Shown: positions 1-53,820 of the stretch, in pieces | How positions within the stretch are numbered: the stretch's first letter is position 1 | How the letters are laid out: the number at the start of each line of letters is the position of its first letter | Assembly (NCBI GenBank): GCA_951812925.1 | Contig: OX638372.1 | Span: 36,640,245-36,704,244 of the forward strand | From: Calliopum simillimum | Lineage: Eukaryota; Arthropoda; Insecta; Diptera; Lauxaniidae | DNA: 64,000 nucleotides | Reading direction: 5' to 3' | Position numbers and translations under genes: made by a program | Notes under the pieces: generated by a model | What the model saw: the letters and a program-made list of their open reading frames with translations, nothing else | Told to the model about the DNA's origin: nothing | The model's database searches: none

Positions 1-332
1 CAGTAGTTTTTTCTCTTCTCCTAATTGTCATAATATTCTAAGTTGGAAAATGCATGGAATTTTCGATTCTTGCAAAAACATTGACTAAAGTTCATAAAAT
101 TAGTATAATTTTCATATAGTCAACATAAACCATTTTAAGTAATCATGGAGAACACGCCAAATATGTGCAACTGGCAACACTTGTCAGTCATATAATAAAA
201 CGGTATTGATTCTCAGCCAATGGCTGAGCCTTACCAAACAAACACAACATGAATGATGACAAAGGAGTATAGAGAATGAAACCACGCTACATGCATATAG
301 GCACTTAAGCTACCAATTTTTCCGAGGGCACA

Positions 333-398
333 CAGCGCAGTCCGTTGATAAATGCGCTATGTAGAGAGATTGATTTCGAAAGGTTCATAGATCGATCC
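333..398 (+). promoter_or_regulatory. tRNA-like Pol III A box and B box
   Basis: A D-arm-like hairpin (GCGC at 335-338 with GCGC at 354-357) encloses an A-box-like stretch at 334-344. GATCGATCC at 390-398 fits the B-box consensus GWTCRANNC. Spacing is normal for a tRNA-derived promoter. The stretch lies about 80 bp upstream of the hammerhead core in the same unit. The acceptor and T stems are not convincing, so this is a tRNA-derived relic and not a tRNA gene. Confidence 0.45.
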
Positions 399-466
399 CG
401 GCCTCAGACAAAAAGTTCAAAAATTTTTCAATTGTTATTTCATTTAATTTAAAATAAATTAAATAA

Positions 467-531
467 AACATAAATTGGTCTGATGATGGTTACGTGGCGG
501 TAACCGAAACATATGTCACCATAGCCATGTT
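467..531 (+). ncRNA. Type I hammerhead self-cleaving ribozyme (candidate)
   Basis: All three helices can be drawn. Core CTGATGA is at 480-486. Stem II pairs 488-493 with 500-505 (six perfect pairs, loop GTGGCG). Core GAAA is at 506-509. Stem III is A509-T516 and C510-G515 with loop ATAT. The cleavage triplet GTC ends at 517. Stem I pairs 476-479 with 518-521, then after an internal loop 467-471 with 527-531 (five more pairs). A stem I internal loop is where natural hammerheads make contacts with stem II. The one departure from the textbook core is an extra T487 before stem II. Predicted cleavage is between 517 and 518. Confidence 0.8.
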
Positions 532-649
532 CAGTAGTTTTTTCTCTTCTCCTAATTGTCATAATATTCTAAGTTGGAAAATGCATGGAATTTTCGATTC
601 TTGCAAAACATTGACTAAAGTTCATAAAATTAGTATTATTTAAAAAAAT

Positions 650-905
650 GTGACAAATTTAACAGTGATAAAATTTGAATTTAATGAAAAATAAACAAAA
701 ACAAATCAACAATAAGATTTCAGATGTCGTTTCCTGTAAAAACAACCAAAATTTCGCACAATTCAAGATAAGAACACCATGACCAACAAGCTGTTGTAAG
801 GGTCGTGGTCGAGTTTTTAAAAAAGACCGGCAATTTGAAGGTGGTCAATCAAAAAGATATAACTAAAATTGCAAAATACAAGGAATTGGCTAATCACGAA
901 CCCAA
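650..905 (-). repeat. Diverged copy of the repeat family at 35500-35710
   Basis: The stretch around 655-745 matches the reverse complement of about 35600-35700, sharing the run AAATCAACAATAA and its flanks; a block near 835-860 also matches. It interrupts the second copy of the hammerhead unit at about 646. No coding potential is seen. From 906 to 1237 I see nothing recognisable. Confidence 0.5.
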
Positions 906-1533: not shown

Positions 1534-4500
1534 CTATGCCTTTAGGCCCAACTGAAATCTAAAATTTTGAAATTTTGTTTTGCCCAAAGACTTAGTTAAA
1601 ATATCAGCAATTTGATCATCAGTTGATATTTTTTGAACACTTATTATACCCTTTTTTTCAAAGTCATATACAAAATGATAACTTATGTCTATGTGCTTAG
1701 AGTTTTTAGAAAATTTTCCATTTTTAGATAAAGCAATTGCTCCAGTATTGTCTTCATAAATTTTCACAGGTTTGTCGGTTTTTACATGAAGGTCGTTCAA
1801 AATGCCTCTTATTGGTATTACTTCTTCTGCACAATCAGCAAGGGCGTAGAATTCAGCATGTGTCGAAGCTCTGGAGACAACTTTTTGTTTTTGTGATTTC
1901 CACAAAATAACATTTCCAAAGACTCGTATAATTATTCCCGTTGTTGACTTCCTGTCAACTATATCCGCGGCCCAATCGGCATCAACAAAGGCATCTATTG
2001 GTTCATCGAAATTTGAATTGTAATTCAACTTTAATGCTCGAGTATGGTATAAATATTTTAAAACACGTAATGCATACTTGTAATGAGTATCGCAATAACT
2101 GTTTTGGAAGCGACTCAAATAATTTACGGAAAAAGATACGTCCGGCCTTGTTCCATTTGCTATGTACAGCAACGCTCCAATTAAATTTCTGTACTTAAGC
2201 GTGTCGTTAACCTCATCAGCAGGCTCTAATTTTAAATTCAACTCCATCGGTGTATCAAACTTTTTAGATTCTGTTACACCAAACTTTTCAGCAAGACTTT
2301 CTATGTATTTTTCTTGGCTCAAAAACATTTGTTTTTCATCTGGATAGTATTCAATATTCAACCCCAAATATTGTGACGCTTTTCCTAAATCTTTCATACG
2401 GAATCGTTTATTTAGTAAGATTTTTGTGTTTCGAATTATCCTGCTATCTGGTCCGCAAATCAATAAATCATCAACGTATAAAATTATATAAATGTTTTTT
2501 CCTTCTACGCAGCCTTTATATAGGCAGTAATCATAGTCTGACCGATCAAAATTTATACTAATCATAAAATCGTTAAAGCACTCATACCAATCGCGTGGAC
2601 TTTCCCTTAATCCATATAGGGCTCTTTTTAGTAGACAAACTTTATTTGGTAACGATTCATATCCATCAGGAGGGTAAATATACACTTCGGATTTAATATT
2701 TCCATTCAAAAACGCCGTTTCAACATCCATCTGTTCGACTTCCCAACCTTTAATACAAGCAAGTGATAACAATACTTTCAATGTAGTCATTCTTGCTACA
2801 GGAGAATAGATTTCTTCATTTTCTTCATACATTTGTTGAAAACCTTTAGCTACAACGCGTGCTTTGAATTTGCCATTCGACTTGATACGATAGATCCACT
2901 TGACCTCAATTATTTTCTTGTCCACGGGTTCGTCAACTAACAACCAAGTATTATTTTCTTCTAAACTTGCAAGTTCATCATTCATTGCTTTTTTCCATTT
3001 CCTTGAATCCGAGCTCTTGATAGCTTCTTCATAACTTTCTGGTACCGATGCATTACAAAAATTAACATAAACAACATGATCATCTAGCCTTTTTGGTAAT
3101 TTTCTCTCTCTTGTAGGCCGTGTTGATTGAATCACATCTTCATTCACGTCCTCATTACTTGCCTCGTTTGAAGTTTGAACCTCTTGAACATCTTGGTTTT
3201 CTTCGTCATTATTGTCATGGTCTTCTGTATCATGTTCATATCTGATGTATTGTTCTGTCTTCTCAATAAATTGTACATGACGACTGATAATTATTTTATT
3301 TTCTACTAATATTTTGTAACCAGTGTCAGTGTAACCGACTAAAATACCTTTTAACGCTTTAGGATTTAATTTCGATGATCTACATTCTTCGGGAATTCTT
3401 ACAAATACTATACTTCCATACAAACGTAAATTAGATACATCAGGTTTTTTGTTAAAAAATATTTCATAAGGAGTTTTTCTTATCTTTGTGTTGGTGAGCA
3501 CTCGATTTCCAAGATACGCAGCAGTGTAAATACATTCTGGCCAATAGTGTTTCTCAATGTTAGCTTCTGATAATAAACAGCGAGCACGATTCATTATAGT
3601 ACGATTATACCTTTCTGCAACGCCATTAAGTTCATGTGTATATGCTGGTCCAGGTTTCAAATATATACCTTCTTGTCTTGCAAACTCATAAAAACTATTA
3701 TTTAAATACTCTCGCCCATTATCGCAACGAATTTCTTTTATTTTCCTTTCCGTTTGATTTTGCATTAATTTAACATACTCAACAAATCTACTATAAACTT
3801 CGCTCTTTTGTTTGATGCAGTATACTACTGCGATTTTACTAAAATCATCGATAAAGGTTACGAAATATTTTTCACCCTTATATCCGGTCGTAGAAATTGG
3901 ACCATGTACATCTGTATGAATCAATTCTAATATATCGTTTGCTCTACTGCGATTATTTTGAAATGGTAAATTTGTCATTTTATTTGTCAAGCATATTTCA
4001 CATTTTAGAAATTCATTTTCAATATTTTTCGGTAGACCATCAAGTAACTGAGAGTGGCACATTTCTTTCAGATTATTAAAATTTGTGTGACCAAGAATTC
4101 TATGCCATTTTTCTTTATTCGACATGCTTACACAACCTGTATACAACTGAGCTTCATTATCTACATTTTCAAAAACTTTGCCATTCAACTCAAAAAGTTT
4201 TTGCCTTATAAAAGCAGTAGCAATTAAATTTCTTTTAGGATTGTAAATTTTAGCAGTATCTTTATCAAACTTAATAAAATTGTTTTCATTGACTATACAG
4301 GAAACGCTAAGTAAATTTTGTTTCATGCTTGGTACAAAATATACATTTTTTATAACTGTTTTAATAAGTTTACCTGCAGTATTAAAATAAACAATTATGT
4401 TACCAATCTTATCTGATTTTAAAGAAAAACCGTCTCCAACTTTAATGTTTATAGGTTCATCTAATTTTCTGTATTCAAAAAAATATTTATCTGTGTTCAC

Positions 4501-5514
4501 AATGTGGTCGGAGCAACCACTGTCCAACAACCACGTAATCTCTTCTCCATTTGATGCATTATCCATACTAGATGACTCAGCTTTTGTTGTCATAACTTGA
4601 ACATTAAATGAATTGTACTCAGATTTACCTTCTATTTTTGAATTTTCAGCGGTTTTAGTTGAGCTATTCGCACTCCGATAACCTGCAGATGTTCCTTGCC
4701 AATTTGTATTCTTTCCTTGCCAGTTTGAATTTTGTTTCCGCCAATTTGAAATATTTGGACAATTTCTTTTTATATGTCCCGGTTGATGACATCCATAGCA
4801 TTCGAATTTAGTCGTATTTGACCTGTTCTGATTATTTTGATAAAATCGTTGATTAAATTGCTTGCCAGTATTCCGATGATTATTTTGAGAATTAGAACCT
4901 TTCGAAGTATTGGAACTAAATGCTTGAAAATTATTTTTATTATTGCTTTCTCGTTTTTGAAATTCTAATATCAATTTGGATTTCACATATTCGACTGTTT
5001 TGTTATTTGCTGGCAGAGCATCCACAATATCCACAATGTGAGAAAGACTTTCTGGTAAAGTCAATAATAAATAATTTAATTTATCGTCGTTACTTACATC
5101 TTCACCAGCATTCTTAAGTTCGTTTATTTGTTTTTCAAAAAAGTTGAGAAAATCAGACGGGTTTTCATTTTCCTTCATTTTTAATTCGAGCAATCTCCTT
5201 TTACATAGTAGCTTATTAGCACTGCTTTTCACTAAATAAGTCTCATCCAGTTTCATGATCATCTTATAAGATGTACTTTCTGAAATGATTAATTCCAATT
5301 GGGTATTTGAAATACTGTTCACAATGTAGTTCTTTGCTTTAATTTCTTTTCTGTTCCAGTCATCTTGCTTCATAGATTCAGGTTTAACCTCTCTTTTAAT
5401 TGCCTCATCACATGCTTTCATTTCCAAGAACAAGTTCAATCTGAATTTCCATTTATCGTAATTTGTACCATCAAAAACTTGCAGCATAAAATCTTCTTTC
5501 TTTTCTCCAGCCAT
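1534..5514 (-). CDS. Copia-type gag-pol polyprotein, intact
   Basis: A 1326-residue single frame, a normal length for copia polyproteins. The N-terminal gag ends in a CCHC zinc knuckle (CYGCHQPGHIKRNC, about residues 239-252). The protease active site is DSG at 331-333. The integrase has the His/Cys zinc domain (about 470-510) and the acidic catalytic triad in the HTDVHGP, RCDNGRE and NGVAERY contexts. RT carries YVDD near residue 1013, and RNase H carries the VDADWA acidic motif near 1177 and ends close to the C terminus. No stop or frameshift interrupts it. The start codon lies 45 nt inside the 5' LTR end, just past the primer-binding site. Copia elements usually make extra gag by alternative splicing; I did not find decisive splice sites. 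Confidence 0.95.
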   Translation of the reverse strand: MAGEKKEDFMLQVFDGTNYDKWKFRLNLFLEMKACDEAIKREVKPESMKQDDWNRKEIKAKNYIVNSISNTQLELIISESTSYKMIMKLDETYLVKSSANKLLCKRRLLELKMKENENPSDFLNFFEKQINELKNAGEDVSNDDKLNYLLLTLPESLSHIVDIVDALPANNKTVEYVKSKLILEFQKRESNNKNNFQAFSSNTSKGSNSQNNHRNTGKQFNQRFYQNNQNRSNTTKFECYGCHQPGHIKRNCPNISNWRKQNSNWQGKNTNWQGTSAGYRSANSSTKTAENSKIEGKSEYNSFNVQVMTTKAESSSMDNASNGEEITWLLDSGCSDHIVNTDKYFFEYRKLDEPINIKVGDGFSLKSDKIGNIIVYFNTAGKLIKTVIKNVYFVPSMKQNLLSVSCIVNENNFIKFDKDTAKIYNPKRNLIATAFIRQKLFELNGKVFENVDNEAQLYTGCVSMSNKEKWHRILGHTNFNNLKEMCHSQLLDGLPKNIENEFLKCEICLTNKMTNLPFQNNRSRANDILELIHTDVHGPISTTGYKGEKYFVTFIDDFSKIAVVYCIKQKSEVYSRFVEYVKLMQNQTERKIKEIRCDNGREYLNNSFYEFARQEGIYLKPGPAYTHELNGVAERYNRTIMNRARCLLSEANIEKHYWPECIYTAAYLGNRVLTNTKIRKTPYEIFFNKKPDVSNLRLYGSIVFVRIPEECRSSKLNPKALKGILVGYTDTGYKILVENKIIISRHVQFIEKTEQYIRYEHDTEDHDNNDEENQDVQEVQTSNEASNEDVNEDVIQSTRPTRERKLPKRLDDHVVYVNFCNASVPESYEEAIKSSDSRKWKKAMNDELASLEENNTWLLVDEPVDKKIIEVKWIYRIKSNGKFKARVVAKGFQQMYEENEEIYSPVARMTTLKVLLSLACIKGWEVEQMDVETAFLNGNIKSEVYIYPPDGYESLPNKVCLLKRALYGLRESPRDWYECFNDFMISINFDRSDYDYCLYKGCVEGKNIYIILYVDDLLICGPDSRIIRNTKILLNKRFRMKDLGKASQYLGLNIEYYPDEKQMFLSQEKYIESLAEKFGVTESKKFDTPMELNLKLEPADEVNDTLKYRNLIGALLYIANGTRPDVSFSVNYLSRFQNSYCDTHYKYALRVLKYLYHTRALKLNYNSNFDEPIDAFVDADWAADIVDRKSTTGIIIRVFGNVILWKSQKQKVVSRASTHAEFYALADCAEEVIPIRGILNDLHVKTDKPVKIYEDNTGAIALSKNGKFSKNSKHIDISYHFVYDFEKKGIISVQKISTDDQIADILTKSLGKTKFQNFRFQLGLKA

Positions 5515-5548
5515 ATTAAATTATTCAAAATCCAATTTGCAAACCTTT

Positions 5549-11817: not shown

Positions 11818-14800
11818 TTAACTTAAATTTTCAGTTATTAAAGCTTGCAATTTTTCAAGAAATATATCCTTTGCCTTGCAATCCTTCATGGCTGTTACAC
11901 ACTTTCGAACATTTTTTATTGTACTCTCCTCCAATGGTTGTGTACATTTTTTAATTATCTCCAATAATAACCATTCAAAGCTCATGAACATTTCTTCGTA
12001 AATTTCAGCTGGTGAAGAGCCAATGATTTTTAATACTTTTGATTCGAGTTTTTCAATTTTTTTTGCATCATTTTCTATTTGAGGAAGCAAAAACTTCACG
12101 ACTATATTTGCATAGTTGACCATACAATGGCGATAATTGTTAACAGCATTATGATTATCTGTTTCTGTAACTACGCCTCCTAAAATGAGCATCATGTCAG
12201 ATATATGAGGAAGTAAGCGGTCACTCCATGCTAACCATTCTGTTTCTTTCATTGTACAACGAACATAATTCTGCATGAAAAAAATACAAAATTTAAATCA
12301 TAATTAAACAATTTTGTTGTGGCTAAAAATATATGTTCAACGCTAGTGCTGCCTTTAAGTGAAACTTTAAGGTTTTAATAGTTGGGCAAGATTATTCTTG
12401 TCTTAAATTTTAATAATAAAAACCGTTTTTTAACCAAACTGCGGTTTCTTCCTTATTAAGTGGCAATCTTTAAAGTACTTACAATAATAAGGAACATTTC
12501 CGCTGTTGATTTGTCTTCAATTTCAACACGTATTAAGAAGCGATCGAAATCGACAGCAGGCTGATTAGGAGCCTGTGAGAATTTCTGGAAATAATACTGA
12601 GTTAGAGGACGATACGGATCCTTCATTACTTTCGTTATCCATTTACGATCTGTAGATTTGTAAAAATATTTATGGCTTGTATTAGAGTAAAAGCTCACAG
12701 GCAAGCAACAACTAACCTTTCTCTGTAGCCACTGGCAAAAATTTCTTTGATGTATTTTGTATAAACTGAATACATTCGCGGACAATTTCATCTCGTTCAT
12801 CTGTATAGGTAATGAGATCCCAGCGAGCCTTTTCCATAACTTGTGCAGTCATCAAAAGCACAGGCGCTGTCGCTTCCCCAAAATTAAGTGGTTTGTATGA
12901 TTGAGTTTCACCACGAGATGCAATTAAATTAAGAGATCTCATAATTGGTAGCAAACCTATGAAGCTTTCCATGTCCAGCAATTCGTTTACAGTCTTGTTG
13001 ATGAAATGCTTTAAAAATTCAGTTTTCCTTTCGGGTTGATAAAGAGTACAATAAATCTCGCAAAGCAAATCCGGAAAGTATTTCTCTTGCATTGTGGAGA
13101 TGTGCTGCATAGCAGCATTTAGCAATGGTTGAAAAAAACTGTTGGAAATGGGTAGTGTCTCACGAACTGTGACGCAAAAATTTTTCACATGCTCGCTAGT
13201 GTGACAGGCAGAGTCAAAGAACTTTCTCCACATTAGTTGTGGATGTTCGAACCAAAGCATTAAAAATTGGTTTAGATCAAAGGAAGAAGAAAATTTATTA
13301 AGAAATTCGGTGGCACGCTGTTGGAAATCGGCTGTGGAATGACAACAAATAGTGGTTTCTGTCCCAAAGGTTTGAATTTCATAAGCCACAAGTTGTAGTA
13401 GTTGATCGCCTTTAAATTGTTTCAATGCTTGTAGTATTATCGTGGTTAAGTCTTCAAAGTCTGTGTAGAGAGAAAATAATATGATGCTAAATGGAATTAT
13501 TTAAAGTAACTGTACACTTATTGGACCTTAAAAAAATTATTATTTATTAAGTATAGTTGAACAATTAAATATTGGGCAAGGAAACAATTGAAAGTAAATT
13601 GTAGTTTATTAACATAGAGTTTTTAAGTGAAAAATGAAAAAATCTGAAGTACAATAAACATTTATATGAAACAATATTTTCAAACAAAACTTAAATCCTT
13701 TTGAACAAGTTAAATGTACAAAGTGATTGTAACGTTTTCTTTCAACACTCCCACTACAAGTTGCAATCACATGTCATTTAAGTTTAGTAAGTTGCGTAAA
13801 TATTGGAAAGAAGTTTTCGGTAATGCCTTTGTGAATAAATCTGCTAATTGCGTTGTACTTGGAACATACAATAGATTAAATTCTTTGTTTTCATATTTCT
13901 CTCGTATAAAGTGATAACGGACGTCGATATGTTTTGTTCTTTTGTGATACTCTGGATTCCTTATCAACTTCATAGCACTTTGATTATCCAATAGTATATC
14001 ACATCCATGTTCCCCTTTAGTAATTTCTTTAAGTAAACGTTTAATCCAAATAAGATCTTTAACTGCCTCAGCAGCTGCAATGTATTCTGCTTCGGTTGTT
14101 GACAAAGCGACTGAACGTTGCTGCTGTGACCTCCAGCAAACAGTGCAGGATCCTAACTGTGTTACCATTCCTGAAGTTGATTTCCGATTACTAGTATCAC
14201 CAGCATAGTCAGAATCAGAGTACGTCCTTAACATAAAATCATTCTGCTTACTGTAAAGAAGTCCAAATTGCATAGTTCCTTTTAAATATCGAAGTACTCG
14301 CTTTGCTGAAGTGATATTAATTAAACTTGGATTATCCATATATCTGCTTAAAGCTCCCACTGCATATGAAATATCAGGACGACTTATAATTGAAAGATAT
14401 AAAAGTGACCCTATCAATTCCTTATATGGAAACTGTTGTACTTTTTCTTCATTGACTTCATTATAATTAGTTTCCAGTGGAGTAGATACACTTTTGCATT
14501 CTGTCATGCTAAATCGTTGCAGAATTTTTGAAGTGTATTGTGATTGATGAAGAAACAAATTTCCATTTTCCATTTGTTTCATCTGAAATCCTAAAAACTT
14601 ATTAAGTTTACATTCTTTAATGTCAAAATGTTGTTTTAAATGGTTTAAAAAAGTTGATGCAAGATTTTGATCACTTGCCAATAAAAGTCCATCATCAACA
14701 TAAATTGCAAGTATTAATTTTGAATTTGTATTATTCTTAATGTATATACAAGAGTCTGCATCACTTACTTGCATATCAAACTTTTTTAGAACTTCGCAAA

Positions 14801-17800
14801 ACTTTTTGTTAAAACATCTTGGAGCTTGCTTCAAGCCGTATAAACTCCGTTTCAACTTACAGACTTTATTTTTGTCTTTAACATAACCGATTGGTTGTTT
14901 CATATAGAGTTCCTCTTCCAATGTTCCATACAAAAAGGCTGTCTTAATATCAAATTGGTTAATTATCATACCTTCATTTACTGCTACACACAAAATTGTT
15001 CTTATTGAATCATATTTTACCACCGGACTGAAGGTTTCTTCATAATCTAAACCATAAACTTGAGTAAAGCCTCTTGCGACCAAACGTGCTTTAAACCGTT
15101 CCACAGATCCGTCCGTATGAAGTTTTGTCTTAAATATCCATCGACAATCCACAAGTTTACGATTAGCAGGCAGATCGCACAGCTCCCAAGTTTGGTTTTT
15201 TATCAGAGATTCGTATTCTTCATCCATTGCCTGTTGCCAGTCTTTTGCATTGCTAGACTGTATTGCTTCCTGGTAAGTCGTTGGATCATCACTATCCGAT
15301 ACAGTCAAAAACATCTCAAATATGTTATTTTTAGATGACCGTAAGTTGTATCTTTCTCTCTCCTGAGTTATTTCATGTAAATTCGGCGTAACTTCTGTAA
15401 TATCATCTTGAATTTCAGCTTGATTTCCATCTAATGAAATAGATTCTTCTTGCGCTACCTGAATGTCATCACACATTGTTGGTAAACTATTATATGTGTC
15501 ATTATCTGGCAATTTGAAAATAACTTCTTCAGATGTTTCATGGTTAACTTCAACCAATTCCTTATTTTCGATTTCTTTTGCAAAAATAACGTCTCGGTGA
15601 ATTTCAACCTTATCTTCCAGCTCAAAATATATTCGATATCCTTTCACATTAGTATCATATCCAATAAAAATACCTCTTTTACTTTTGGCATCCCATTTTT
15701 TACGAAGATCTTTCGAAACATGAGCAAAAACTTCGCAGCCAAATACTCGCAAATGTTTTATTGCTGGAGTCCTCTGGAACCATAACTCGAAAGGAGTCTT
15801 TTCTTTGATTGAACTTGGTCCACTGCGATTCAAAACATAGACAACCGTGTTTACAGCTTCAGCCCAAAGCTTCTTGTTTAAACCTTTGGTGTGGATTAAA
15901 CTTCTAGCTAGCTCAACCACTGTACGTAATTCTCTTTCTACAGCTCCGTTCTGCTCTGGTGTATAGGGCACTGTTCTTTGATGTCGAATTCCATTTTGTG
16001 ACAACAAATCTTGAACATTTTTGTTTATAAATTCAGTTCCATTGTCAGATCTGAATACTTTTGGCACAACTTTGCTATTTTTTACCAGTTTTAAAAATTT
16101 TTTTAAGTTCTCCTTGACTTCATCCTTGTGTTTTAGAAAAAACACCCATTTAAATCGTGAGAAATCATCTTTTAGAAGAAGAAAATACTTTGATCCACCA
16201 ATAGAAGGCTGCTCCATGGGACCACAAATGTCAGCATGTATAATTTCTCCAGCCTTCTTAGCACGGTTATCACTTAAATGGAAAGGCTGCCTATGATGCT
16301 TACCAAAACAGCATCCATCACATATTGTTTCCATATCATTGACAAAATCAACTTCGTGCTGCTTAAGAACCTGTTGTATATGATTATAATTTTGATGAAC
16401 TAACCTTTGATGCCATAATTTAAGCGAAGCTTTTCGATTGATCCCTGCTGAATAATTTGCAGTATTTTCATCATTGGTTATACCTTCACTTTTCTTCAAG
16501 ACTCTCATTTTCATTTCAAATAATTGACCACTTCGAACACCCTGAGCTTGTACTTTGCCATCTCGATGAAATGTGCACACATTTTTATTTGATTTCATTA
16601 CAAACCCTTTATCCATTGCAGTACTAGCAGAAAACAAATTGACTTTTATGTCAGGTACATATAAAACATCAGCAAGATACTTCTGCTGCCAGCCGTCTGA
16701 ACTGCACATTAAAACGGTTATATTTCCCTTTCCTAAGGCTTTTAAAGTTGAACCATCACCAATTCTGACATATTTGCATTTGTCAAATAATTCTAGGCCT
16801 GAATACCAATCCCGATGAGCTGTCATATGTTCGGAAGCACCGGAATCCACATACCACTTTTCATTAACATCAACCACTTGATACTCAGTATCACACATAA
16901 AAGCATTTGATTTCACTTCCTTATTATGGTTTACAGCTAATTTCATTTTAATGAGAGGACAATCCTTTTTCCAGTGGCCTTCTTCATTACAATTAAAACA
17001 TTTTCCTGGGTTTCTGTTAAGCTTAAATTTCTTCGAAGTAAATGCAATTGCATCAGTTTTTTCATCATTGCTCCTGGTTTGTTCAAGAATCAAGCGATTT
17101 GTAAGATTTTCTAAAGTCTTCTTATCTTCTTGTGTTGACTCCCAAGCAGTAATAAAATTATTGAAATTTGATGGTAACGTCATTAAAATTTTCGTCATGA
17201 TCATTTTTTCTGATATTGGCTCACCAAGATTTTTAAGTCTATCAGCTAACTCTTCAATTTTAGCTACATGACCTTCAATGCTATCTTCCGGAGATTTTTG
17301 AATCTGATAAAATTTTTGTTGAAGCATATGAATGCTCACTTCGGACTTCAGTTCGTATATGGTTAGAAGTTTTTTCCACATTTCCTTAGCATTTTTGCAG
17401 CACATTAAATACTGAATCACTGACTTATTGACTGCAGTAATTATGCAACGCTGAGCTTTGATATCAGCCTTTTCCCATTCTTCCAAACTCTTTAGGTATG
17501 CTGCATTTTCAGCATCTCCACCTCCTTGTGGCAATGGTTGTTCCCAGCTGCCTTCAACTATTTTGTAGACGTCCATAGATTTTAAAATGATGCACATCTG
17601 GAACTTCCACGAACTCCAATTCGCAGCTCCTTGCAGTTTTTCAATCTTCACGTCATCCATGTTGAATGCTGTTTCTATAAAGCTGATTTTCACTATTTTT
17701 TATTAAAATTATCTCTATGCAGTTGAACAATTTTTCTTTTTCCTTTATTTAGACGTTGTCTGGGCCCATAACCAGTTGAACAATTAAATATTGGGCAAGG

Positions 17801-19746
17801 AAACAATTGAAAGTAAATTGTAGTTTATTAACATAGAGTTTTTAAGTGAAAAATGAAAAAATCTGAAGTACAATAAACATTTATATGAAACAATATTTTC
17901 AAACAAAACTTAAATCCTTTTGAACAAGTTAAATGTACAAAGTGATTGTAACGTTTTCTTTCAACAAGTATATTCATTGCTTTTCGGCGGTCTTTTGTAC
18001 ACTTATTTTTTTTTTTTTTTTTAATTTACTATTTTGGCGATTCTAAAGGAGAACCCTCCCTCGAAAACACGTAGACTCAAAAAACGTGATACTTTTAAGG
18101 ATAAAAGTTTGTTTTTCACTTTTTTTAAAGGATTCTTTTATCTAAATGATTTAAAAAAGTCTGACTTAACTTAAAAAAAACTTTTAAAAAAGTTTCTTTC
18201 AAGGTCTGATTTTAGCTTTGCATTCATTCCTAAACGTTTTATTTTGATAAATATTAAATATTGTCAATATCTAGCAATTACAATCTTATACTTTACCTGA
18301 AGCATCGATATCCATTTTTTCAGTCTCTGCTGTTGAGTCCTCCTTTTTAATAGCATCGTCGGTAATATCCTCTATTTTAATATCAGTTTCTTTTATAAAA
18401 TTAGTTTCTTCATTGTGCTCCATTTGCAACTTCATATAATTTAAAATTTTCTCACAGTGCTCTACAGTCATCAATTTTATGTTATCCCTTATAGATTGCA
18501 AACATTCATCGTTACCATATGCGACATTGCGATTGAGTAGCTCATTAAACCAAATCATTTTTATGTCGTGCGGTAAATTATTATCATCTAAACTGCGTAG
18601 AATTACTCCGATATTAGCATCACTCACAGTCTCCTCTAGCGTCTTTGGACGTATGGCAATGGCACACAGCTGTTGTTCTACATCGTGAGCAAAACTGCGA
18701 TTTGCTAACATGCGCTGACCTACGCGGTAAGCCAATTCGCCTATGGCCATTTGGAGGTTTATAGTGTCAGTGAGGTCTATTTCAACCCAATACATAAATA
18801 CATCGATTTTTACAAGCATAACATTGTATTGTAGCGAATTTAGAAGTGCAGAAATGATCTTAAGTTGGTATTCCTTTAACAGCGCAAAGTTATTTTTCTT
18901 GTTGGGTTTTGATTTTTTGCATTGCTCTTGACAAATTTCATAAATTTCAATATTGAAGTTTGGTGCGATCAACGCTGGTTTTTCGTATATATCAAAACAG
19001 CGCAATGTCATGTCCAGCAGATGTTTAAGGGCGATACCCGAGTATTTAAAAAACTGAGATTTATTGAATTTTTTAAACTTCTCAGCATCCGGGGTGTAAA
19101 ACTGTCTGAGAAAGTTCATTGTATAATCATACAGCTTACCAAAAATGATTTTCTTTTCAACAACTTCAATTTCACGCAGTTCTCCGCGAGAAATACTGAG
19201 GAATAAGGCATTGACCAATTTTTCTACTTTGTCTAGCACCTCATATGGATCATCTATATATTTCATGGAATCTGAAGCAGTCTCAAAATATTGGAAAGCA
19301 AACCAACAAGGCGTATAGGAAAGTATTTCATAGAAAAACTGATCCAATTTGAGTTCCCACATCATAGTCACCAATAGAAATTTAGGCAGTAGTGGGCATA
19401 ACTCAAGCACATGACCAATGACCGGATCATCTTTCAAATTATACTTGTAAGTTGCATCAGTGTTGGCGAAAAGAAACATCGATAATTTTCGCAGCATTTC
19501 ATAAGCTGTTTCAACTGGCTTCTTCGTTTTTTCATCAATATAGCCCCGCTCTAGCAGAAGTCCTTGGAGTCTGTTAGCGAGTTCATTAATGAAGGCTTCA
19601 TTTCCACCGCGAAAGTGAATTTTGGCAAACGGCTTAACGTATTTATTACAATGTTCTAGTATTGACTTTACTTCATCGAATTCCTCACAGTAATCCATTA
19701 CGGAATCTTTCGAAAATAACTTTAAAATTTTATGCAAATCCCGCAT
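11818..19746 (-). CDS. Four-exon gene, 937-residue helical protein of unknown function
   Basis: Exons on the minus strand: 19746-18297, 13460-12717, 12649-12483 and 12270-11818. Introns are GT-AG with phases 1, 1 and 0, and the exons sum to 2814 nt, that is 937 residues plus stop. Splice donors are GTAAAG, GTTAGT and GTAAGT. The protein starts MRDLHKILKLFSKDSV and is rich in Leu, Lys and Glu with long predicted helices, no signal peptide and no TM segment. An acidic Lys/Glu linker around residues 450-480 (ending KMDIDAS) separates two helical halves. I do not recognise the family; an armadillo/HEAT-like scaffold is only a guess. Intron 1 is 4836 bp because it contains copia element 2; without it and one target copy it would be 419 bp. 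A candidate AATAAA lies at 11732-11737. Confidence 0.85.
13555..13747 (-). repeat. 3' LTR of copia element 2
   Basis: 193 bp, reading TGTTGAAAG...GTTCAACT on the minus strand. It contains the minus-strand AATAAA at 13605-13610. The polypurine run GTGGGAG precedes it at 13748-13754. Confidence 0.95.
13767..17693 (-). CDS. Copia-type gag-pol polyprotein, intact
   Basis: A 1308-residue open frame. The likely start is the second methionine (17660, MDDVKIEKLQGA), since copia gag usually starts just before this motif; the first ATG would add 11 residues. Gag ends in a CCHC knuckle (CFNCNEEGHWKKDC, about 232-245). The protease is VDSGAS at about 281-286, the integrase has a His/Cys domain and the IHADICGP, RSDNGTE and NGAVERE acidic contexts, RT has YVDD near 998, and RNase H has SDSDYAGD near 1160 and STTEAEY near 1200. 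No interruption is seen. It is closer to the classical Drosophila copia group than element 1, judging by the priming site. Confidence 0.95.
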   Translation of the reverse strand: MKISFIETAFNMDDVKIEKLQGAANWSSWKFQMCIILKSMDVYKIVEGSWEQPLPQGGGDAENAAYLKSLEEWEKADIKAQRCIITAVNKSVIQYLMCCKNAKEMWKKLLTIYELKSEVSIHMLQQKFYQIQKSPEDSIEGHVAKIEELADRLKNLGEPISEKMIMTKILMTLPSNFNNFITAWESTQEDKKTLENLTNRLILEQTRSNDEKTDAIAFTSKKFKLNRNPGKCFNCNEEGHWKKDCPLIKMKLAVNHNKEVKSNAFMCDTEYQVVDVNEKWYVDSGASEHMTAHRDWYSGLELFDKCKYVRIGDGSTLKALGKGNITVLMCSSDGWQQKYLADVLYVPDIKVNLFSASTAMDKGFVMKSNKNVCTFHRDGKVQAQGVRSGQLFEMKMRVLKKSEGITNDENTANYSAGINRKASLKLWHQRLVHQNYNHIQQVLKQHEVDFVNDMETICDGCCFGKHHRQPFHLSDNRAKKAGEIIHADICGPMEQPSIGGSKYFLLLKDDFSRFKWVFFLKHKDEVKENLKKFLKLVKNSKVVPKVFRSDNGTEFINKNVQDLLSQNGIRHQRTVPYTPEQNGAVERELRTVVELARSLIHTKGLNKKLWAEAVNTVVYVLNRSGPSSIKEKTPFELWFQRTPAIKHLRVFGCEVFAHVSKDLRKKWDAKSKRGIFIGYDTNVKGYRIYFELEDKVEIHRDVIFAKEIENKELVEVNHETSEEVIFKLPDNDTYNSLPTMCDDIQVAQEESISLDGNQAEIQDDITEVTPNLHEITQERERYNLRSSKNNIFEMFLTVSDSDDPTTYQEAIQSSNAKDWQQAMDEEYESLIKNQTWELCDLPANRKLVDCRWIFKTKLHTDGSVERFKARLVARGFTQVYGLDYEETFSPVVKYDSIRTILCVAVNEGMIINQFDIKTAFLYGTLEEELYMKQPIGYVKDKNKVCKLKRSLYGLKQAPRCFNKKFCEVLKKFDMQVSDADSCIYIKNNTNSKLILAIYVDDGLLLASDQNLASTFLNHLKQHFDIKECKLNKFLGFQMKQMENGNLFLHQSQYTSKILQRFSMTECKSVSTPLETNYNEVNEEKVQQFPYKELIGSLLYLSIISRPDISYAVGALSRYMDNPSLINITSAKRVLRYLKGTMQFGLLYSKQNDFMLRTYSDSDYAGDTSNRKSTSGMVTQLGSCTVCWRSQQQRSVALSTTEAEYIAAAEAVKDLIWIKRLLKEITKGEHGCDILLDNQSAMKLIRNPEYHKRTKHIDVRYHFIREKYENKEFNLLYVPSTTQLADLFTKALPKTSFQYLRNLLNLNDM
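17758..17773 (-). other. Primer-binding site matching the inside of initiator tRNA-Met
   Basis: Directly after the 5' LTR the minus strand reads GGTTATGGGCCCAG, the complement of the anticodon-arm region of initiator tRNA-Met. This is the half-tRNA priming known for Drosophila copia, in which a cleaved tRNA fragment primes reverse transcription. Confidence 0.88.
17774..17966 (-). repeat. 5' LTR of copia element 2
   Basis: 193 bp, same sequence as 13555-13747 as far as I can align by eye. It carries the same sense-strand AATAAA at 17824-17829, which the host transcript must read through before reaching exon 2. Confidence 0.95.
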
Positions 19747-19916
19747 TGAAGTAAATTTGTTTTTCTTTTTTTAACAAAAGTAAAAAAACTGGATTTTTAA
19801 AGAATAAACAGTATAGATCTCGTTCAGAAAACGCGTGAAAAAGTCAAAAACAAATGTCAAATACAATCCTTTTGAATCTGTTTTTCGCATGGTGGAATTA
19901 TAAGGTGATGACAACC

Positions 19917-31170: not shown

Positions 31171-34068
31171 TTACTGACTAAATTTGACTCCTATATTGTT
31201 GACACGTGACTTCATATGTTTCAGCACATCTTCGGATAAATCTTCTACTGTTGTGTAACGACTCTTTTGGAAGTTAAATATATCTGCTAAAAATCCTAGC
31301 ATTTGTTCACGAAAATAGTGACAAATGTCGCGTAAATTTTCATCAGGTCCAAAAAAACCCCATGCCATGAGTGGCGAAATTTGTTCAGATATAACATAGA
31401 AATGTGACATGAATCCATTAGGAAATTTAAGCATACGTTTCTTAGCTTTCAACACTGACCATACAGCTGTTGTGAGAGCCTGTATGAAAAGAATATTGTG
31501 AATATGTGCCAACGATATATTAAATGAATTATAGTTACAGTTTCTTTAAAACCATTCGATAGGAACCGGTTTTGTACAACAGCTGTAACACTGCCAGGTG
31601 GCGCATCTAGGTCACGAAACGAGTCTAGAATTATGAAATCCAAACAAATATCGTAAAATGTCATTGCTTTGACATTACGAACTTCTAGCTCTTTTTGTAT
31701 ATAGTCCCAATTTTCGGCTTCATGCAAGTAATTAATCATATCTTCATAACCGACAAGAAACTCTTTTGTATCCTTATCACCAACGCAAAGCAAGTCGGTA
31801 AGGATTTGGCGACCAGTATCTGCGACCCATTGTCCAATTGCCGGGTCCTAAAATTAAAGTCGGAATTATTAGTAGGTACAATAATTACATAATTTTACGA
31901 AAATTGTCTTACTTTAAATAAATATTGGAAGGCTAAGCGCACACAGTGCAACTTTGCTAGATACTCAGTATCATTGGCACAATGCACCAATTCAGTGCGC
32001 AGACTACGACATGGTATCGGCGATTCTTCACCGTGTTTGATTGCTGCTTGATACAATGGATATTGATCATATTCGGCTAGCGTATCTGCAAACTCTTCGA
32101 ATTCACGCAAATCTGCTACTTGGTCTAATGCAGAAGCAAAACTTTCAGCAGAATCAAAGTTTGGATCTGAACCATTTCGACTCATAATTGATTTGCGTGA
32201 GCTTCTCTCTTCGGCGTCAGCATCTTCCTCCGCTTCATCAATAGAAGGTTCATCACGAAATAAAACCGAACGTTGATCTAAAAATAGTAACTCGCTTTGA
32301 TCCTGCAGTGTATACGCCATATCTAGAAGATTTTGTATTTCACGGCAAAATTCAGATTCTTCTGCGGTTGTAAGTAATGCAGGAACACCACCGGGTGAGT
32401 AATGTGCTGCCAATGCATCTTCCCAGTAATTAATAACTGTGTCTAACGCTTCCATGCCCATTACACCCAATTGTTGAGCTGTTAATTGCACAATAACACC
32501 GGTAGAGACGAGCGCACCAGCACCAATGGACCCTGACGCCATTGATAGGCGATCAGAGAGTGCCACTGTTGAACCAACAGGACTCCCTGAACGTGCAGAA
32601 GCTTTTGAGCCAGCTACAGAAATCATGTCATTTGGACTTCGCATACTGTTGCGGGTACGACGTCCAGTATACTTGCGCGAACGACGCGGAGGACGTGGTG
32701 GCTTTCGACGACGTAGAAAGCGTGCAAGTACTCCAAGCAAAGCAACACCCGCTGTGATGGAAACAAGAACAACCTAATAAAATTAAAAAAATGTTCTTAT
32801 AAACTGAATTTAAACAAAAAATTGAGTTGATATTCTTGTTTCTATTTTTGTCCCGGAGGTTAATAATAATGAAACCTATTTTTCAAGTGAAGAACGTATC
32901 ACTTGGACAAAGCTTTAATTTTCCATTCTGATGCTCAAAAAATGTCTGTTTTTGGATTGTTGTCCTTCTAAGTCTAACCGATGCTAATGTTTTTTTATGC
33001 CATCATATCCTGAAGAAATATCCATTAAAAATTTATTATCGTGTGCGCTCGATTTGCGATTACTCTTCATTTTGTGCATTTTTGGTTAAGCGTTTAAAAC
33101 TTCTATATAATAACTTTCAACTTATTGGAATCGGATAAACATACGATTAAATAGGACTACCTTTTATAAAATTGTACAAGAATTTAATTTTTCAGTATCC
33201 CAAAAACAACACTCGAGAAAGTTTTCTGCCACTTTTTACCGGAGTTAGCGTGTCATTTTTCAAAAGAAATAGTTAAACGTTGGAGTGTAACTTTTTAACT
33301 GGAGGTTGGTGTAACCAAGTTATTTTAACAGCATGAAAATTTTTGCTCGTGTAGTGCCATGTCATGTATAGCTAAAGCGTTTCATAATTTTTAAATTGCA
33401 ATTTGTACAGTAGAGTTTTTAATTTAAGTGATTTGACATCTCAGACCTGCCAACATTTATCTATAAAGGGTGTTTTTTTAAGCCCGATAGTACTTGAAAT
33501 TTTTTCTACAAAATTTTTTTTTTTGTTTATTACGATTATTTGTACACGTTAAAATGCGAATAACATGTTTACCAAAATTCAAAACTTTAATGCAATTGTG
33601 GAACTATTATCCAACGATAACTTGTTGCCTCACCCCCATAACAAGAAAAGGTGGAGCAACGCATACCGGGAAATGCTTGCATTTATTATTACCAAAGGCA
33701 GTTAAACTAAACTACTTTTACCTTTTGTTCAAACTGAAAAATAGATGTTTAAAACAATAAGTTAAGCATAAACAATTTTGTCGAATGGTTCTAAATGCAT
33801 CTTCTTCATTTAAGGATTCCCACGCTAGTTTCGACAGAATCGCTCATGTTTATCTATGTACTTCAAAGCAATGTTAATTTATGGTATGCACCAACACATA
33901 ATATGTATAAATAGTTTCTGAAAGATTATTATCAGATTTTTGGTTCAAAAGATATTGTATGTACAATACAGTTCTTATTCTTCAAAGTTTTACCTTCTGA
34001 GAAGTGGTCATGCGAAAAGGAAGTATGCGACAGTCTGCCCATTTAGCCGGTAACAATCCTTGTAACAT
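31171..34068 (-). CDS. Miga: Mitoguardin (mitochondrial outer-membrane protein)
   Basis: Exons 34068-33994, 32773-31913, 31847-31539 and 31479-31171 give 517 residues with phase-0 GT-AG introns throughout. Exon 1 encodes MLQGLLPAKWADCRILPFRM; exon 2 opens with the single N-terminal TM segment (VVLVSITAGVALLGVLARF, about 26-44) followed by an Arg/Pro/Lys-rich stretch, as in the family. A Ser/acidic linker (about 200-250) precedes the C-terminal lipid-binding domain. Mitoguardins promote mitochondrial fusion and bind lipids at ER-mitochondria and lipid-droplet contacts. The C terminus ends GVKFSQ. An AG at 34142-34143 and a GTAAGT near 34330 suggest a 5'-UTR intron. Length is typical of fly Miga. 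Confidence 0.93.
32790..33985 (-). other. Intron 1 of the mitoguardin gene
   Basis: About 1.2 kb separate the 25-codon first exon from the TM-coding exon. No coding sequence or clear transposon is seen; the open stretch at 33494-33760 on the plus strand lacks any domain or codon signal. Confidence 0.7.
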
Positions 34069-34786: not shown

Positions 34787-35817
34787 TGGTTCAGTGAAAC
34801 TGTGAAGTGTAAAAAAATTTATCGATTTCATTTTCACCGAATCTTTTCACTTCACTTCATCGATTGAAGCGATTCTGGTTTACAAAGTGAAATAGTTTGT
34901 TTTAAAATACAAATTTTATACACATACGTAATGAGATTCTGTGGCTGATAGAGGATTTGCTTTTTTAATATTTCTGAGCATTGTGTTAGGAGTTCAACCC
35001 CAGTGGGGGACAATTATTTTTTTTTTTAATTATTATTTTTTTTTTAATAATTAACGCTTACCTCGTTTTTGTCAAGCAGAGGTAAGCGCTTACTTCCTAG
35101 AGCATACAATGAAACGATACTTTTTATGGAACGTAAGTGCTTGGTGCTGCCAAATACATAAATGCTAACGAAAACCTTTTACATCACTCTTTTCCCCTTG
35201 GTCGAAATTGATTTTTAGTATACAAATAAACCACGATTACAGCCACACGGTTCTAGCAAAGAGAATGAAACTAGGTACAGTTATTACTTGGGGTCGAAGT
35301 GTGATTAAGATTCAAATTCAGGGAGATAGTTTCAGAGTCTACAAAGCACAGGCTGTCTGATTTGCGATCCGATCTAAGTCACGCTGTCCACTTGCTTTAG
35401 GTGTTCAAAACGAACTCTAGTTTTTTAATTGAACCAACTAAAACTGAACTGCGATGGAATAAACGGCGTTAAATTGAAGCGAATCGAATAAAAAATCAAT
35501 CGGGGTCGAGGGGCAAAAATTCCTTAAATTTTGCAATTTAAAATTTATCCACCTTCAATTTCCGGCCATTTACATCAACTTATTGATAATGTTTTATAGG
35601 AAACGGCATTTGAAATATTATTGTTGATTTGCTTATGTTTGTTTTTCATTAAATTAAATTTTAATCACTGTCGAATTTGTCAGTGAAAACTTTTGCTTGA
35701 GGTGTGAAAAAACTTTTCACATTTTTTAAAATTTTAAACAACAAGAATCGCTTTTACGGTGAAGTGATAAAAAATCATTTTACTTCGACTTTTTACTGAA
35801 CCAGAATCAAACCCCTT
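34787..35817. mobile_element. Inner element with GGGTCGATTCTGGTTCAGT ends
   Basis: GATTCTGGTTCAGTGAAA near 34792 is inverted near 35798-35812 (ACTGAACCAGAATC). A half copy lies at 9837-9946 and an interior piece at 650-905. The subterminal parts of both ends contain GAAGTGA repeats. No transposase is present. Confidence 0.7.
34940..35012 (+). repeat. tRNA-like A and B boxes, SINE head (candidate)
   Basis: TGGCTGATAGAGG (34942) fits an A box and GTTCAACCC (about 34992-35000) fits a B box, followed by CAGTGGGGGAC. No tail or target duplication could be fixed. Confidence 0.4.
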
Positions 35818-52128: not shown

Positions 52129-52249
52129 TTAATTTCTTTGTGGTAGTAAATTTTGAAAAATTTATCGTAGTATGTGTTAAATGGGTCAGTCCATAATTCA
52201 ATATGGTTACGTAGGATTTGCTGGGTATATTTAAATAAAAATAAAACAA

Positions 52250-52740
52250 CTACAACAGACGGTACACTCTCGAAATGTTACATATAACCAAAGTACCGAA
52301 ACAACTAAGACTCAACTACAAAACTGACACAGACAATTGCGCACACATATATAGACACTTAGTAAAACCAAAAGAGACATCAGCTGGTACATAGACGAAA
52401 ACATAAACATTAACAAGTTGACCGCGCCAAACTACAAAAGTGTATTAACAAATATTTTTGACTTAAAAATTTTAATTTTGCATAACTGTTAATTTATTAA
52501 ATCAGTTGAGTTATTAGTTCAATGTAATTGTTAATTATTTTCATTTTTTAATGTAAGTTTCAATTATTTTATGAATTGTGATATTATTGTAATGAAATGT
52601 TTTTGTGCAATTTGTTTTAAATTTTAGTCCCTGATGATGTCTTTCAATGAAAGACGAAATATTGGAAAAATATAAATTTGAATTTTGTCAACAATTTAAA
52701 TTGAAGTATTTACTGACCTAAAGCTCGTCTAACACAATTA
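52250..52740 (+). mobile_element. Penelope-like element tail (candidate)
   Basis: A short decayed coding-like stretch (ETTKTQLQN-like reading near 52300) is followed by AT-rich DNA and then CCTGATGATGTC...GACGAAATATTGG, the type of hammerhead-bearing segment found at ends of Penelope-like retroelements. No GIY-YIG or RT domain could be recovered. Confidence 0.4.
52631..52674 (+). ncRNA. Second hammerhead-like core, probably decayed
   Basis: CTGATGA at 52631-52637, then one T, stem II 52639-52645 with 52649-52655 (seven perfect pairs, loop AAT), GAAA at 52656-52659, stem III 52659-52663 with 52669-52673 (five pairs, loop GGAAA), and cleavage after A52674. Stem I is weak (C52630 faces A52675), so activity is doubtful. 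It shares the extra T after CTGATGA with the ribozyme at 467-531. Confidence 0.5.
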
Positions 52741-53153
52741 AAAATAAAATATTTTTTGTAGAAAATTTTTAGGGCTACAAAATTGTCATTAGAAAATTTT
52801 CTGTAAAAGTACGCGTAAACGAGATATTTTCAAAAATGTTTTTTGTGACCTTTGACCGAATATCTTGACATGGTCTCTGCCTTAATTCAGTTATCTAACT
52901 TTAAAAGGGAATTAGAAACCTCCATTTTATTTAAGAAAGCTTGGTTCTTGCAAATGAAAACGTAATCAATAATAGTGGCGATGAAATGTCATGTGCATAG
53001 CTTTTTTTTAACATTTTTAAAATTTAACAAAAAAAATCAGCGTTCACATTTGAAAAACCCAACCCAAAAAAAAAAAAAAAAAAAAATGCTTCAAAGTTAA
53101 AATGTAAACGCAGTAATAAAACGTCCTTCTTTGCTCAGAAGAATCCTCTCTTA

Positions 53154-53317
53154 GGGGCTGTCCATAAACTCCGTGACGCTCCTAGGGGGGGGGGGGGTTC
53201 GAGCAAGCGTCACGCTTGGTGTATTTTATTTATTTTTTATATGAAGCTACCGTCACATAGGGGGGAGGGGTGTTCAATATAGCGAATTTTAGCGTCACGG
53301 AGTTTATGGACAGCCTC
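53154..53317. mobile_element. 164-bp Harbinger-type MITE
   Basis: TTA on both sides (53151-53153, 53318-53320) and 27-bp inverted ends GGGGCTGTCCATAAACTCCG and its partner. TTA duplications with such ends fit PIF/Harbinger. A G-run of about 14 bases is near the left arm. Confidence 0.85.
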
Positions 53318-53820
53318 TTATCATATCTGTTGACTTTTGACAAAATAACCTAAGTCGAGATAAGACAAATCTCCAGGATTTTAGTCCTAAATACAAAATT
53401 TAAATACGCTTCTATTGGTATAATCGCCATGTCTTTATGATTTCTTGTGCCAGAGATATACGGGTGTCCCATAGTTCACGCAAGATTTGAACTTAACGCC
53501 ATTCGTGCGGTAAAGTGTTATGAACAAAAAAAAAAAAAAAAAATAATAATTTGACAGCTGACACTTTAAGATTAGTAAAAATGTATGAAAAGAGGAGATT
53601 CACGCTGCATCAACGAAATTGAGCCACATTATTGAAAAGTAGTTAATCAGTTTTTAGGCTCTCCTGAAAAGTTGCCATTTTCGAGTTGGGTTGTTTTGTC
53701 CAAAGTCCACAGATATGTGGTTGCTGTTATTTTGTTTTCCTCTGAAATTATAAATCTATGAGGTTGTTGTTATTTTACTGTTGCTGTCCCTTAAATTTTG
53801 ACAAGCTGCAATAACCTCCT

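Follow-up and report, generated by a model that had tools for sequence, protein, structure and literature searches.

What kind of element carries the hammerhead-like sequence near the left end of this stretch, and what has moved that element through the fly genome, are the questions raised by this locus. The window, i.e. the whole stretch of 64,000 nucleotides analysed here, corresponds to positions 36640245–36704244 of contig C5 in a host assembly of 690 Mb. An earlier note had described a near-textbook type I hammerhead ribozyme at 467–531 in a repeated element, with an extra T after the core, a GUC cut site and a second such motif at 52631. On reinspection of the sequence, the coordinates, core, extra T, cut site and second motif were all as described. 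The features of the left end are as follows:

467..531, + strand, motif 1, very probably a hammerhead of type I, in the family A unit (motif scan, folding, chance tests, genome copies)
467-471/527-531, + strand, lower stem I (AACAU/AUGUU), 5 bp
472-475/522-526, + strand, internal loop of stem I (AAAU/UAGCC)
476-479/518-521, + strand, upper stem I (UGGU/ACCA), 4 bp
480..486, + strand, core CUGAUGA, identical in the 100 genome copies listed
487, + strand, extra U separating A9 from stem II, a feature of family A that family B lacks
488..505 (488-493/500-505), + strand, stem II (GGUUAC/GUAACC), 6 bp, with loop GUGGCG
506..509, + strand, GAAA box, identical in the 100 genome copies listed
509..516, + strand, ACAUAUGU, a perfect 8-nt palindrome including CAUAUG; helix III, 2 bp as a monomer and 8 bp as a dimer according to folding
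517..518, + strand, predicted cleavage site GUC/A (UC/ACCA, with U516 and C517; cut 517/518), placed by the hammerhead consensus
1..531, + strand, family A unit, ~530 bp, non-coding (repeat spacing 531; tandem genome copies ~530 bp apart)
532..641, + strand, partial second unit, forming the short-type 3' end of the window insertion (repeat comparison, end mapping)

Motif 1 contains the conserved core (CUGANGA, GAAA and U16.1-H17) plus one base between A9 and stem II, and we hold with high confidence that it is a hammerhead of type I architecture. The claim of three near-textbook helices was overstated. When 467–531 was folded alone (-14.6 kcal/mol), both parts of stem I and stem II formed (mean pair probabilities: stem II 0.93; stem I 0.73 in its lower and 0.79 in its upper part), whereas helix III consists of just A509-U516 and C510-G515 closing AUAU and brought no gain in energy (-9.8 with it vs -10.1 without it). 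In four longer stretches, including 455–545, the mean probability of the hammerhead stems was 0.00–0.10 because a competing hairpin wins; for 455–545 the MFE was -18.4, compared with -16.1 when the hammerhead was imposed, tertiary contacts being outside the folding model. Circular folding of the predicted circle of the family A unit likewise did not form the hammerhead. For the dimer, values of -31.4 (double hammerhead), -29.2 (two monomers) and -34.0 (best unconstrained dimer) were obtained; action as a dimer via the palindromic helix III is possible in this model, although energy alone does not favour it. Loops II and I also offer a possible GGC/GCC contact as a candidate, and self-cleavage by the copy in the window is predicted as likely.

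A descriptor was composed post hoc, with the motif already known, from the core with at most 1 extra base, a stem II of at least 3 bp, GAAA, UH and a stem I of at least 3 bp. It matched exactly two places in the window, 480 and 52631, with both strands searched. In 150 first-order Markov windows it matched 12 times, once with a stem II of at least 5 bp and never with one of at least 6 bp, and 400 descriptors with permuted core and box gave 30 matches in the real window, 1 with a stem II of at least 6 bp. A chance origin of motif 1 is unlikely. The earlier note had proposed a check with Rfam hammerhead covariance models. Neither the gathering score nor a relaxed cut-off of E up to 10 yielded a match anywhere in the window, and searches of small stretches gave none either. 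A copy of the related family B at locus L071 reached 22.2 bits with Rfam Hammerhead_3 (E 0.0058 for 101 bases), less than the threshold of 48.5. A genome search with RF00163, in which 73 of 75100 candidates were scored and 14 control genomes gave no signal, carried no information either way. The exact sequence of motif 1 was not found among the viral contigs searched, where two hammerhead patterns matched 21 loci, 2 of them with a stem II of at least 5 bp. On a phage-like IMG/VR contig (L003, 11740, + strand), CCTGATGATG, a 7-bp stem and CGAAACGTTGG form a hammerhead-like motif with one extra T at the 3' end of a frame.

Window positions 1–111 are repeated at 532–641, with a spacing of 531, and 200 N, an assembly gap or withheld sequence, lie directly left of the window, so that any units further left are out of view. 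The unit has a GC content of 34% and a circular MFE with a z of -4.4 against 60 shuffles. Window 430–600, used as a query against the genome, had 1258 candidates; 40 of these were scored. Of 46 matches in the resulting list, 40 were full length and 100% identical, and among those listed many lay in tandem at ~530 bp and many as inverted pairs. With a flank-anchored pattern (both flanks fixed, the 45–49 bases between them left free), 381 copies of motif 1 (183 + 198) were found genome-wide and none in a reversed control. The search for further copies suggested by the earlier note was thus productive, and its description of a type I hammerhead architecture in a repeated dipteran element was borne out; the element carrying motif 1 is real and recently amplified. 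Among the 100 flank-exact copies listed, 94 carry the same sequence from flank to flank; each of the other 6 has a single change, which falls neither in the core nor at the extra T. A core varying freely between conserved flanks had been named as evidence against a ribozyme; the core is invariant in these copies, but the test is weak because just 6 changes are available (~0.12 by chance, by our own estimate). Compensatory changes in the stems, also suggested as a check, were seen in the PLE hammerheads described below. Of the four changes that fall in stem II of the listed family A copies, three disrupt a pair. When mutation rates within the ribozyme of the fetched copies were set against those around it, the difference seemed significant; this result is void, these copies having been chosen by identity to 430–600.

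The genome pattern CTGATGAN{12,28}CGAAACATATG gave 3068 matches, which are copies of few ancestors and not independent, and 0 when reversed. The matches listed belong mainly to family A (extra T, stem II GGTTAC/GTAACC) and to family B, which lacks the extra T and has a stem II of GTCTTT/AAAGAC, a canonical core and mostly the same loop letters as family A; UAGCC is retained in two family B copies examined in full (L071 and L058). The extra T shared by the two motifs had been read as a variant of one fly lineage. This reading was not supported. Motif 2 belongs to a PLE, and PLE ribozymes regularly have an extra nucleotide there (14 of 14 aligned rows); motif 1 belongs to a non-coding unit, and the canonical core of its sister family B lacks the extra T. 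Judged from the copies compared, the extra T of motif 1 is a family A feature.

Several observations on these repeats may be noted separately. Family B hammerheads with a 406-bp spacing occupy C1:369-2701, at the very start of contig C1, possibly as a satellite-like or chromosome-end array, and at L071 a PLE ORF of motif 2's family has a family B ribozyme (1379–1440, - strand) a short way upstream. Window 651–741 and 35592–35682 (- strand) are 87% identical; the retrozyme copy stops within 10 bp of another repeat recurring in the window. A tRNA-like Pol III promoter at ~324–410 was considered but found no support: an exact B box with an A box of at most 2 mismatches occurs 26 times in the window and neither ARAGORN nor cmscan reported a tRNA there.

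Insertion scars were mapped in 20 regions, comprising the left flank of the window and 19 regions around exact matches on contig C1, chosen by identity to 430–600. Thirteen were two-ended insertions, in which an inverted and a direct arm stand head to head, each finishing outward in a partial unit. One outer end lies at unit position 105–112 and the other at 134–146 in 12 of the 13, one end being ~30 nt longer, and the shared flank, i.e. the target duplication, measures 12–16 bp in 12 of 13, compared with at most 10 in 156 cross pairs of different insertions; the exception is L049, with ends at 128 and 141 and a shared flank of just 4 bp. Anchored on the duplications, the end difference was 27–33 nt in nine insertions (L034, L035, L036, L037, L039, L042, L043, L046 and L050; L024 and L025 duplicate the L050 place, the match at L033 was longer and unrelated, and L032, L044 and L049 are outside this list). 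Six single-arm insertions end at 107, 110, 137, 141, 142 and 146, with a shared flank of at least 10 bp in 3 of the 6, and the family A copy of the window ends at 111. Further places, kept outside these counts, are L023 (137, 107), L026 (112, 137), L028 (137, 118), L029 (138, 110) and L027 (138, with a single arm); L030 repeats the L049 place. The unit thus shows head-to-head arms, a tail on one end and a target duplication, the marks by which PLE-mobilized sequences are recognized.

Measured from the predicted cut, the outer ends of the arms lie ~120 or ~150 nt downstream; a cut linear monomer would accordingly yield a cDNA of at most ~160 nt. Of the 32 arms, 30 cross the predicted cut site (the exceptions are the right arms of L032 and L049), and the 5' end of only 1 falls within 10 nt of it, with 1.3 expected (KS p 0.68). 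If reverse transcription began at these outer ends, by analogy with the anole PLE, it used circles or uncut multimers as templates, and the data do not separate these two.

The resident PLEs became visible through the second motif, the features of which are as follows:

52248..52394, + strand, end of a PLE reverse transcriptase ORF, preserved as a C-terminal remnant (match to P0021 over 40 aa at 77% identity, E 2.9e-15; stop codon 52392–52394)
52628..52666, + strand, motif 2, hammerhead of the PLE class (extra U at 52638; stem II 52639-52645/52649-52655; GAAA 52656–52659; no helix III; predicted cut 52663/52664)

The frame at 52248–52391, just 5' of motif 2, matches the C-terminus of four RVT_1 proteins, one of them from the fly Eurosta solidaginis. 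We take these relatives to be PLE proteins from their GIY-YIG-like block (YVGTTK..KLKTR); the repeats around the ORF point the same way, Pfam having returned RVT_1 only. Motif 2 lies 237 nt past the stop of this C-terminus and is the ribozyme of a PLE. It has a UU cut site, and its A9, extra U and G10.1 form an AUG (at 52637), with the predicted cut 26 nt past that A.

A genome search with P0022 gave 53 matches from the 52 scored of 1963 candidates, and at least 8 loci have open frames of 841–907 aa with no stop within the match; 30 loci were excised. A strict descriptor (stem II of at least 4 bp, canonical core plus one extra nucleotide) placed a ribozyme in 24 of the 30 loci, and a looser, motif-only pattern placed a hammerhead in 29, with downstream and direct copies in 28 and upstream copies in 11; at L079 no hammerhead was found in the DNA stretch searched. 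In PLE hammerheads at L051, L052, L053, L058 and L060, five loci additional to the 24 and representing at least two families, U3 and A8 replace C3 and G8. The AUG of 10 upstream copies is followed by a frame of only 2–15 codons, and ACG replaces it in one copy, so the main PLE ORF starts elsewhere or is spliced; a role of the extra T as a start codon is accordingly unproven for PLEs, and none is claimed for motif 1.

Covariation was analysed in 14 rows, 13 picked by us from the PLE loci plus motif 2, with L057 and L063 nearly identical. An extra nucleotide follows the core in all 14 rows (T in 12 and C in 2). Standard pairs filled 85.7% of the pair cells, as against a shuffled mean of 67.4 (0 of 500 shuffles as high), with 95.9% in stem II and 69.0% in stem I, and 12 of 15 pairs had changed on both sides (0 of 500 shuffles). 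Sliding the partner by 1–3 columns lowered the covariation score from 0.52 to at most 0.14, kinship inflating such counts. At core positions 3 and 8, 12 rows pair C with G and 2 pair U with A; this swap is reported to occur in nature, and ribozymes carrying it to be active in vitro (PMC3088659).

Eight PLE loci with hammerheads facing both ways were checked for scars. The insertions at L055, L059, L073 and L080 have duplications of 13–15 bp and end differences of 33–37 nt, the values at L070 were twelve T and 26, and no coherent pair emerged at L056 or L071, nor any at L063. In 11 of 12 PLE tails (L053, L055, L056, L059, L060, L064, L066, L069, L070, L072 and L073) a motif like TGACCTNNAGCY follows the start of the core at a distance of 59–102 nt, with AGGTC further on in several, and may be a recognition hairpin for the reverse transcriptase. 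No useful PLE relatives were found in the viral and other genome contigs searched; one Bacteroidetes MAG contig ends in 21 residues that match PLE reverse transcriptase (L001, 49–111), possibly through contamination.

The rest of the window contains the following. At 1534–5520 and 13767–17699 (both - strand) there are uninterrupted polyprotein frames of 1328 and 1310 aa, judged by eye to be of copia type, and there is a LINE-like RT/RNase H piece. A mitoguardin exon lies at 31895–32770 (best named relatives Musca autumnalis, 74%, and Condylostylus longicornis, 71%; closest overall, 93%), and a MITE-like inverted repeat, GGGGCTGTCCATAAACTCCGTGACGCT ... AGCGTCACGGAGTTTATGGACAGCC, lies at 53147–53318. 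A protein search with 18286–19767 returned no named relative.

Because the insertion scars of the unit resemble those of the resident PLEs, PLE enzymes are proposed as its mover, and mobilization of family A in the PLE manner is, in our judgement, strongly probable. Taken as a whole, the reading that motif 1 is the ribozyme of a non-autonomous retrozyme of the metazoan type (~530 bp, family A), moved in trans by PLEs of the same genome, seems to us reasonably likely. Under it i) tandem arrays would be transcribed, ii) ribozymes would pair in twos through the palindromic helix III at ACAUAUGU and cut after C517, iii) host ligase, as proposed from other animals, would circularize the 530-nt monomers, iv) PLE reverse transcriptase and endonuclease would start at either of two places, ~120 and ~150 nt past the cut, one site per target strand, v) the target would be opened with a ~13-bp stagger, vi) copying would proceed round the circle or along an uncut multimer, and vii) the two cDNA arms would join head to head. 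Steps iv to vii are modelled on the scars.

In favour of this reading are the chance tests, the copy counts with their empty reversed controls, the scars common to the unit and at least four of the eight resident PLE loci checked, the covarying PLE hammerheads and the arms that cross the cut site. Against it stand the missing Rfam match for family A, the low probability of the hammerhead stems in longer stretches and their absence from the predicted circle, L049 and the 3 single-arm insertions that show no clear duplication, the results for the anole PLE in vitro, the unit length, the scant sequence similarity to the PLE loci, and the choice of insertions by identity from one contig. No PLE protein remnant was found in the unit, blastn gave no similarity to the 30 PLE loci except to the family B copy next to L071, alignments of its tail with 12 PLE tails were not significant except perhaps for L073 (18 of 400 shuffles as good), and folding of its tail hairpin was no better than that of shuffles. 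In a variant of the proposal the unit is an internally deleted PLE, i.e. a pLTR-like remnant without the coding region that is still moved by PLEs, so that origin alone would differ. Such a derivation would account for a PLE-like insertion scar and for an extra ribozyme nucleotide as in PLEs; the absence of a protein remnant and of blastn similarity speaks against it, as does the ribozyme class, a GUC cut and palindromic helix III standing against a UU cut and no helix III, and we consider it unlikely. Still less probable is movement by a retroelement of LINE or LTR type, or amplification of a satellite by recombination, with PLE-like scars arising by convergence. The LINE-like piece and the two copia-type ORFs of the window would suit the former and the family B arrays at a contig start, with their 406-bp spacing, the latter, but neither sits well with dispersed two-ended insertions that have 12–16 bp duplications and paired short and long ends, as in the resident PLEs.

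The ribozyme might also be a non-cleaving relic, inactivated by the extra U and the competing fold, in an element that spreads without it. The extra core base, the poor folding in context and the failure of Rfam models to match speak for this, and PLE insertion in vitro is independent of ribozyme cleavage (PMC11167929). Opposed to this are the unchanged core in the 100 listed copies, a comparison of low power (~0.12 by chance), and the covariation under constraint of PLE ribozymes with an extra base at the same place; on this balance a relic appears doubtful. That there is no hammerhead at all and the resemblance is fortuitous would agree with the lack of an Rfam match at E up to 10, and is scarcely credible given the null rates from Markov windows and permuted descriptors, the 3068 genome matches against 0 reversed (not independent) and the detection, below threshold, of family B by Rfam Hammerhead_3 at 22.2 bits. 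The preferred reading thus remains a retrozyme moved in trans by PLEs.

Extended beyond this fly, the proposal is that animal retrozymes are moved in trans by PLE enzymes, with two start sites on a circular or multimeric RNA, one per target strand, giving head-to-head arrays that have a short end and a long one; we lean towards this generalization. To a similar degree we favour the joint statement that an element amplified recently and strongly can have a hammerhead with one nucleotide inserted between A9 and stem II and that PLE enzymes move animal retrozymes. Matching scars in retrozyme and PLE copies are physical evidence on what moves animal retrozymes; together with hundreds of young copies and at least 8 PLE loci with open frames, they make the question testable at the bench. 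The role of hammerheads in PLEs has been termed a mystery (PMC7761336), and the PLE hammerheads of this fly are a natural covariation series that includes the swap from C3-G8 to U3-A8.

The ribozyme and the retrozymes are of known kinds. Non-LTR retrozymes of metazoans, with insects among the carriers, have been described (Cervera and de la Pena 2020, PMC7229834), and mobilization by PLEs is an earlier published conjecture (PMC7229834, Discussion; PMC7761336, section 8). The earlier note knew of no such unit in a fly; dipteran hammerheads had in fact been published, as Aedes repeats (PMC3088659) and as type III motifs in house fly, fruit fly and soldier fly (PMC7936874), and neither this fly family nor PLE-type scars on retrozymes were found in the titles, abstract starts and passages of the open-access literature searched.

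Like the metazoan retrozymes described in PMC7229834, family A consists of short tandem non-coding units with type I hammerheads; with respect to the retrozyme criteria given there, GC below 50% and target duplications above 4 bp, it has 34% and 12–16 bp (in 12 of 13 insertions). Motif 1 also resembles the ribozymes of axolotl retrozymes, which have a helix III with a palindromic tetraloop and act as dimers (PMC7229834). The unit of ~530 bp exceeds the 150–450 bp reported for animal retrozyme repeats, a size that we do not treat as defining because it is given as a description and circles of up to more than 1000 nt are also mentioned (PMC7229834). Unlike metazoan retrozymes as described in that source, family A has an extra core U and head-to-head insertions with paired short and long ends, and its predicted circle would block the ribozyme, unlike that of most animal retrozymes (PMC7229834).

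Minimal hammerheads of PLEs are known from reviews (PMC6155905, PMC7761336). Motif 2 and the motifs of 29 of the 30 PLE loci are like them in being minimal and of type I, without helix III, in repeats flanking the PLE ORF, whereas motif 1 differs from them in its GUC site, its palindromic helix III and the lack of a PLE ORF. In the anole PLE PAc the ribozyme overlaps the start codon and cuts 26 nt downstream (PMC11167929), as predicted for motif 2 with its AUG at 52637 and cut at 52663/52664; in contrast to PAc, the AUG of the fly PLEs opens just 2–15 codons and is not established as the main start. Ribozyme mutants of the anole element insert unimpaired in vitro, the ribozyme cut only with protein added, and two reverse transcription start sites account for an optional tail (PMC11167929).

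Bdelloid rotifer Penelope elements (PMC3846280) are similar to family A in having an inverted pLTR at one end, an optional 31-bp tail on one of the inverted pLTRs and target duplications, and in carrying unrelated sequence between pLTRs. Their duplications measure 8–10 bp, compared with 12–16 in family A, and the cargo of family A, unlike theirs, is a ribozyme-bearing tandem repeat in hundreds of copies. The scar of family A fits mobilization by PLEs because the published PLE tail and inverted pLTR (PMC3846280) and the two start sites of PAc (PMC11167929) match it.
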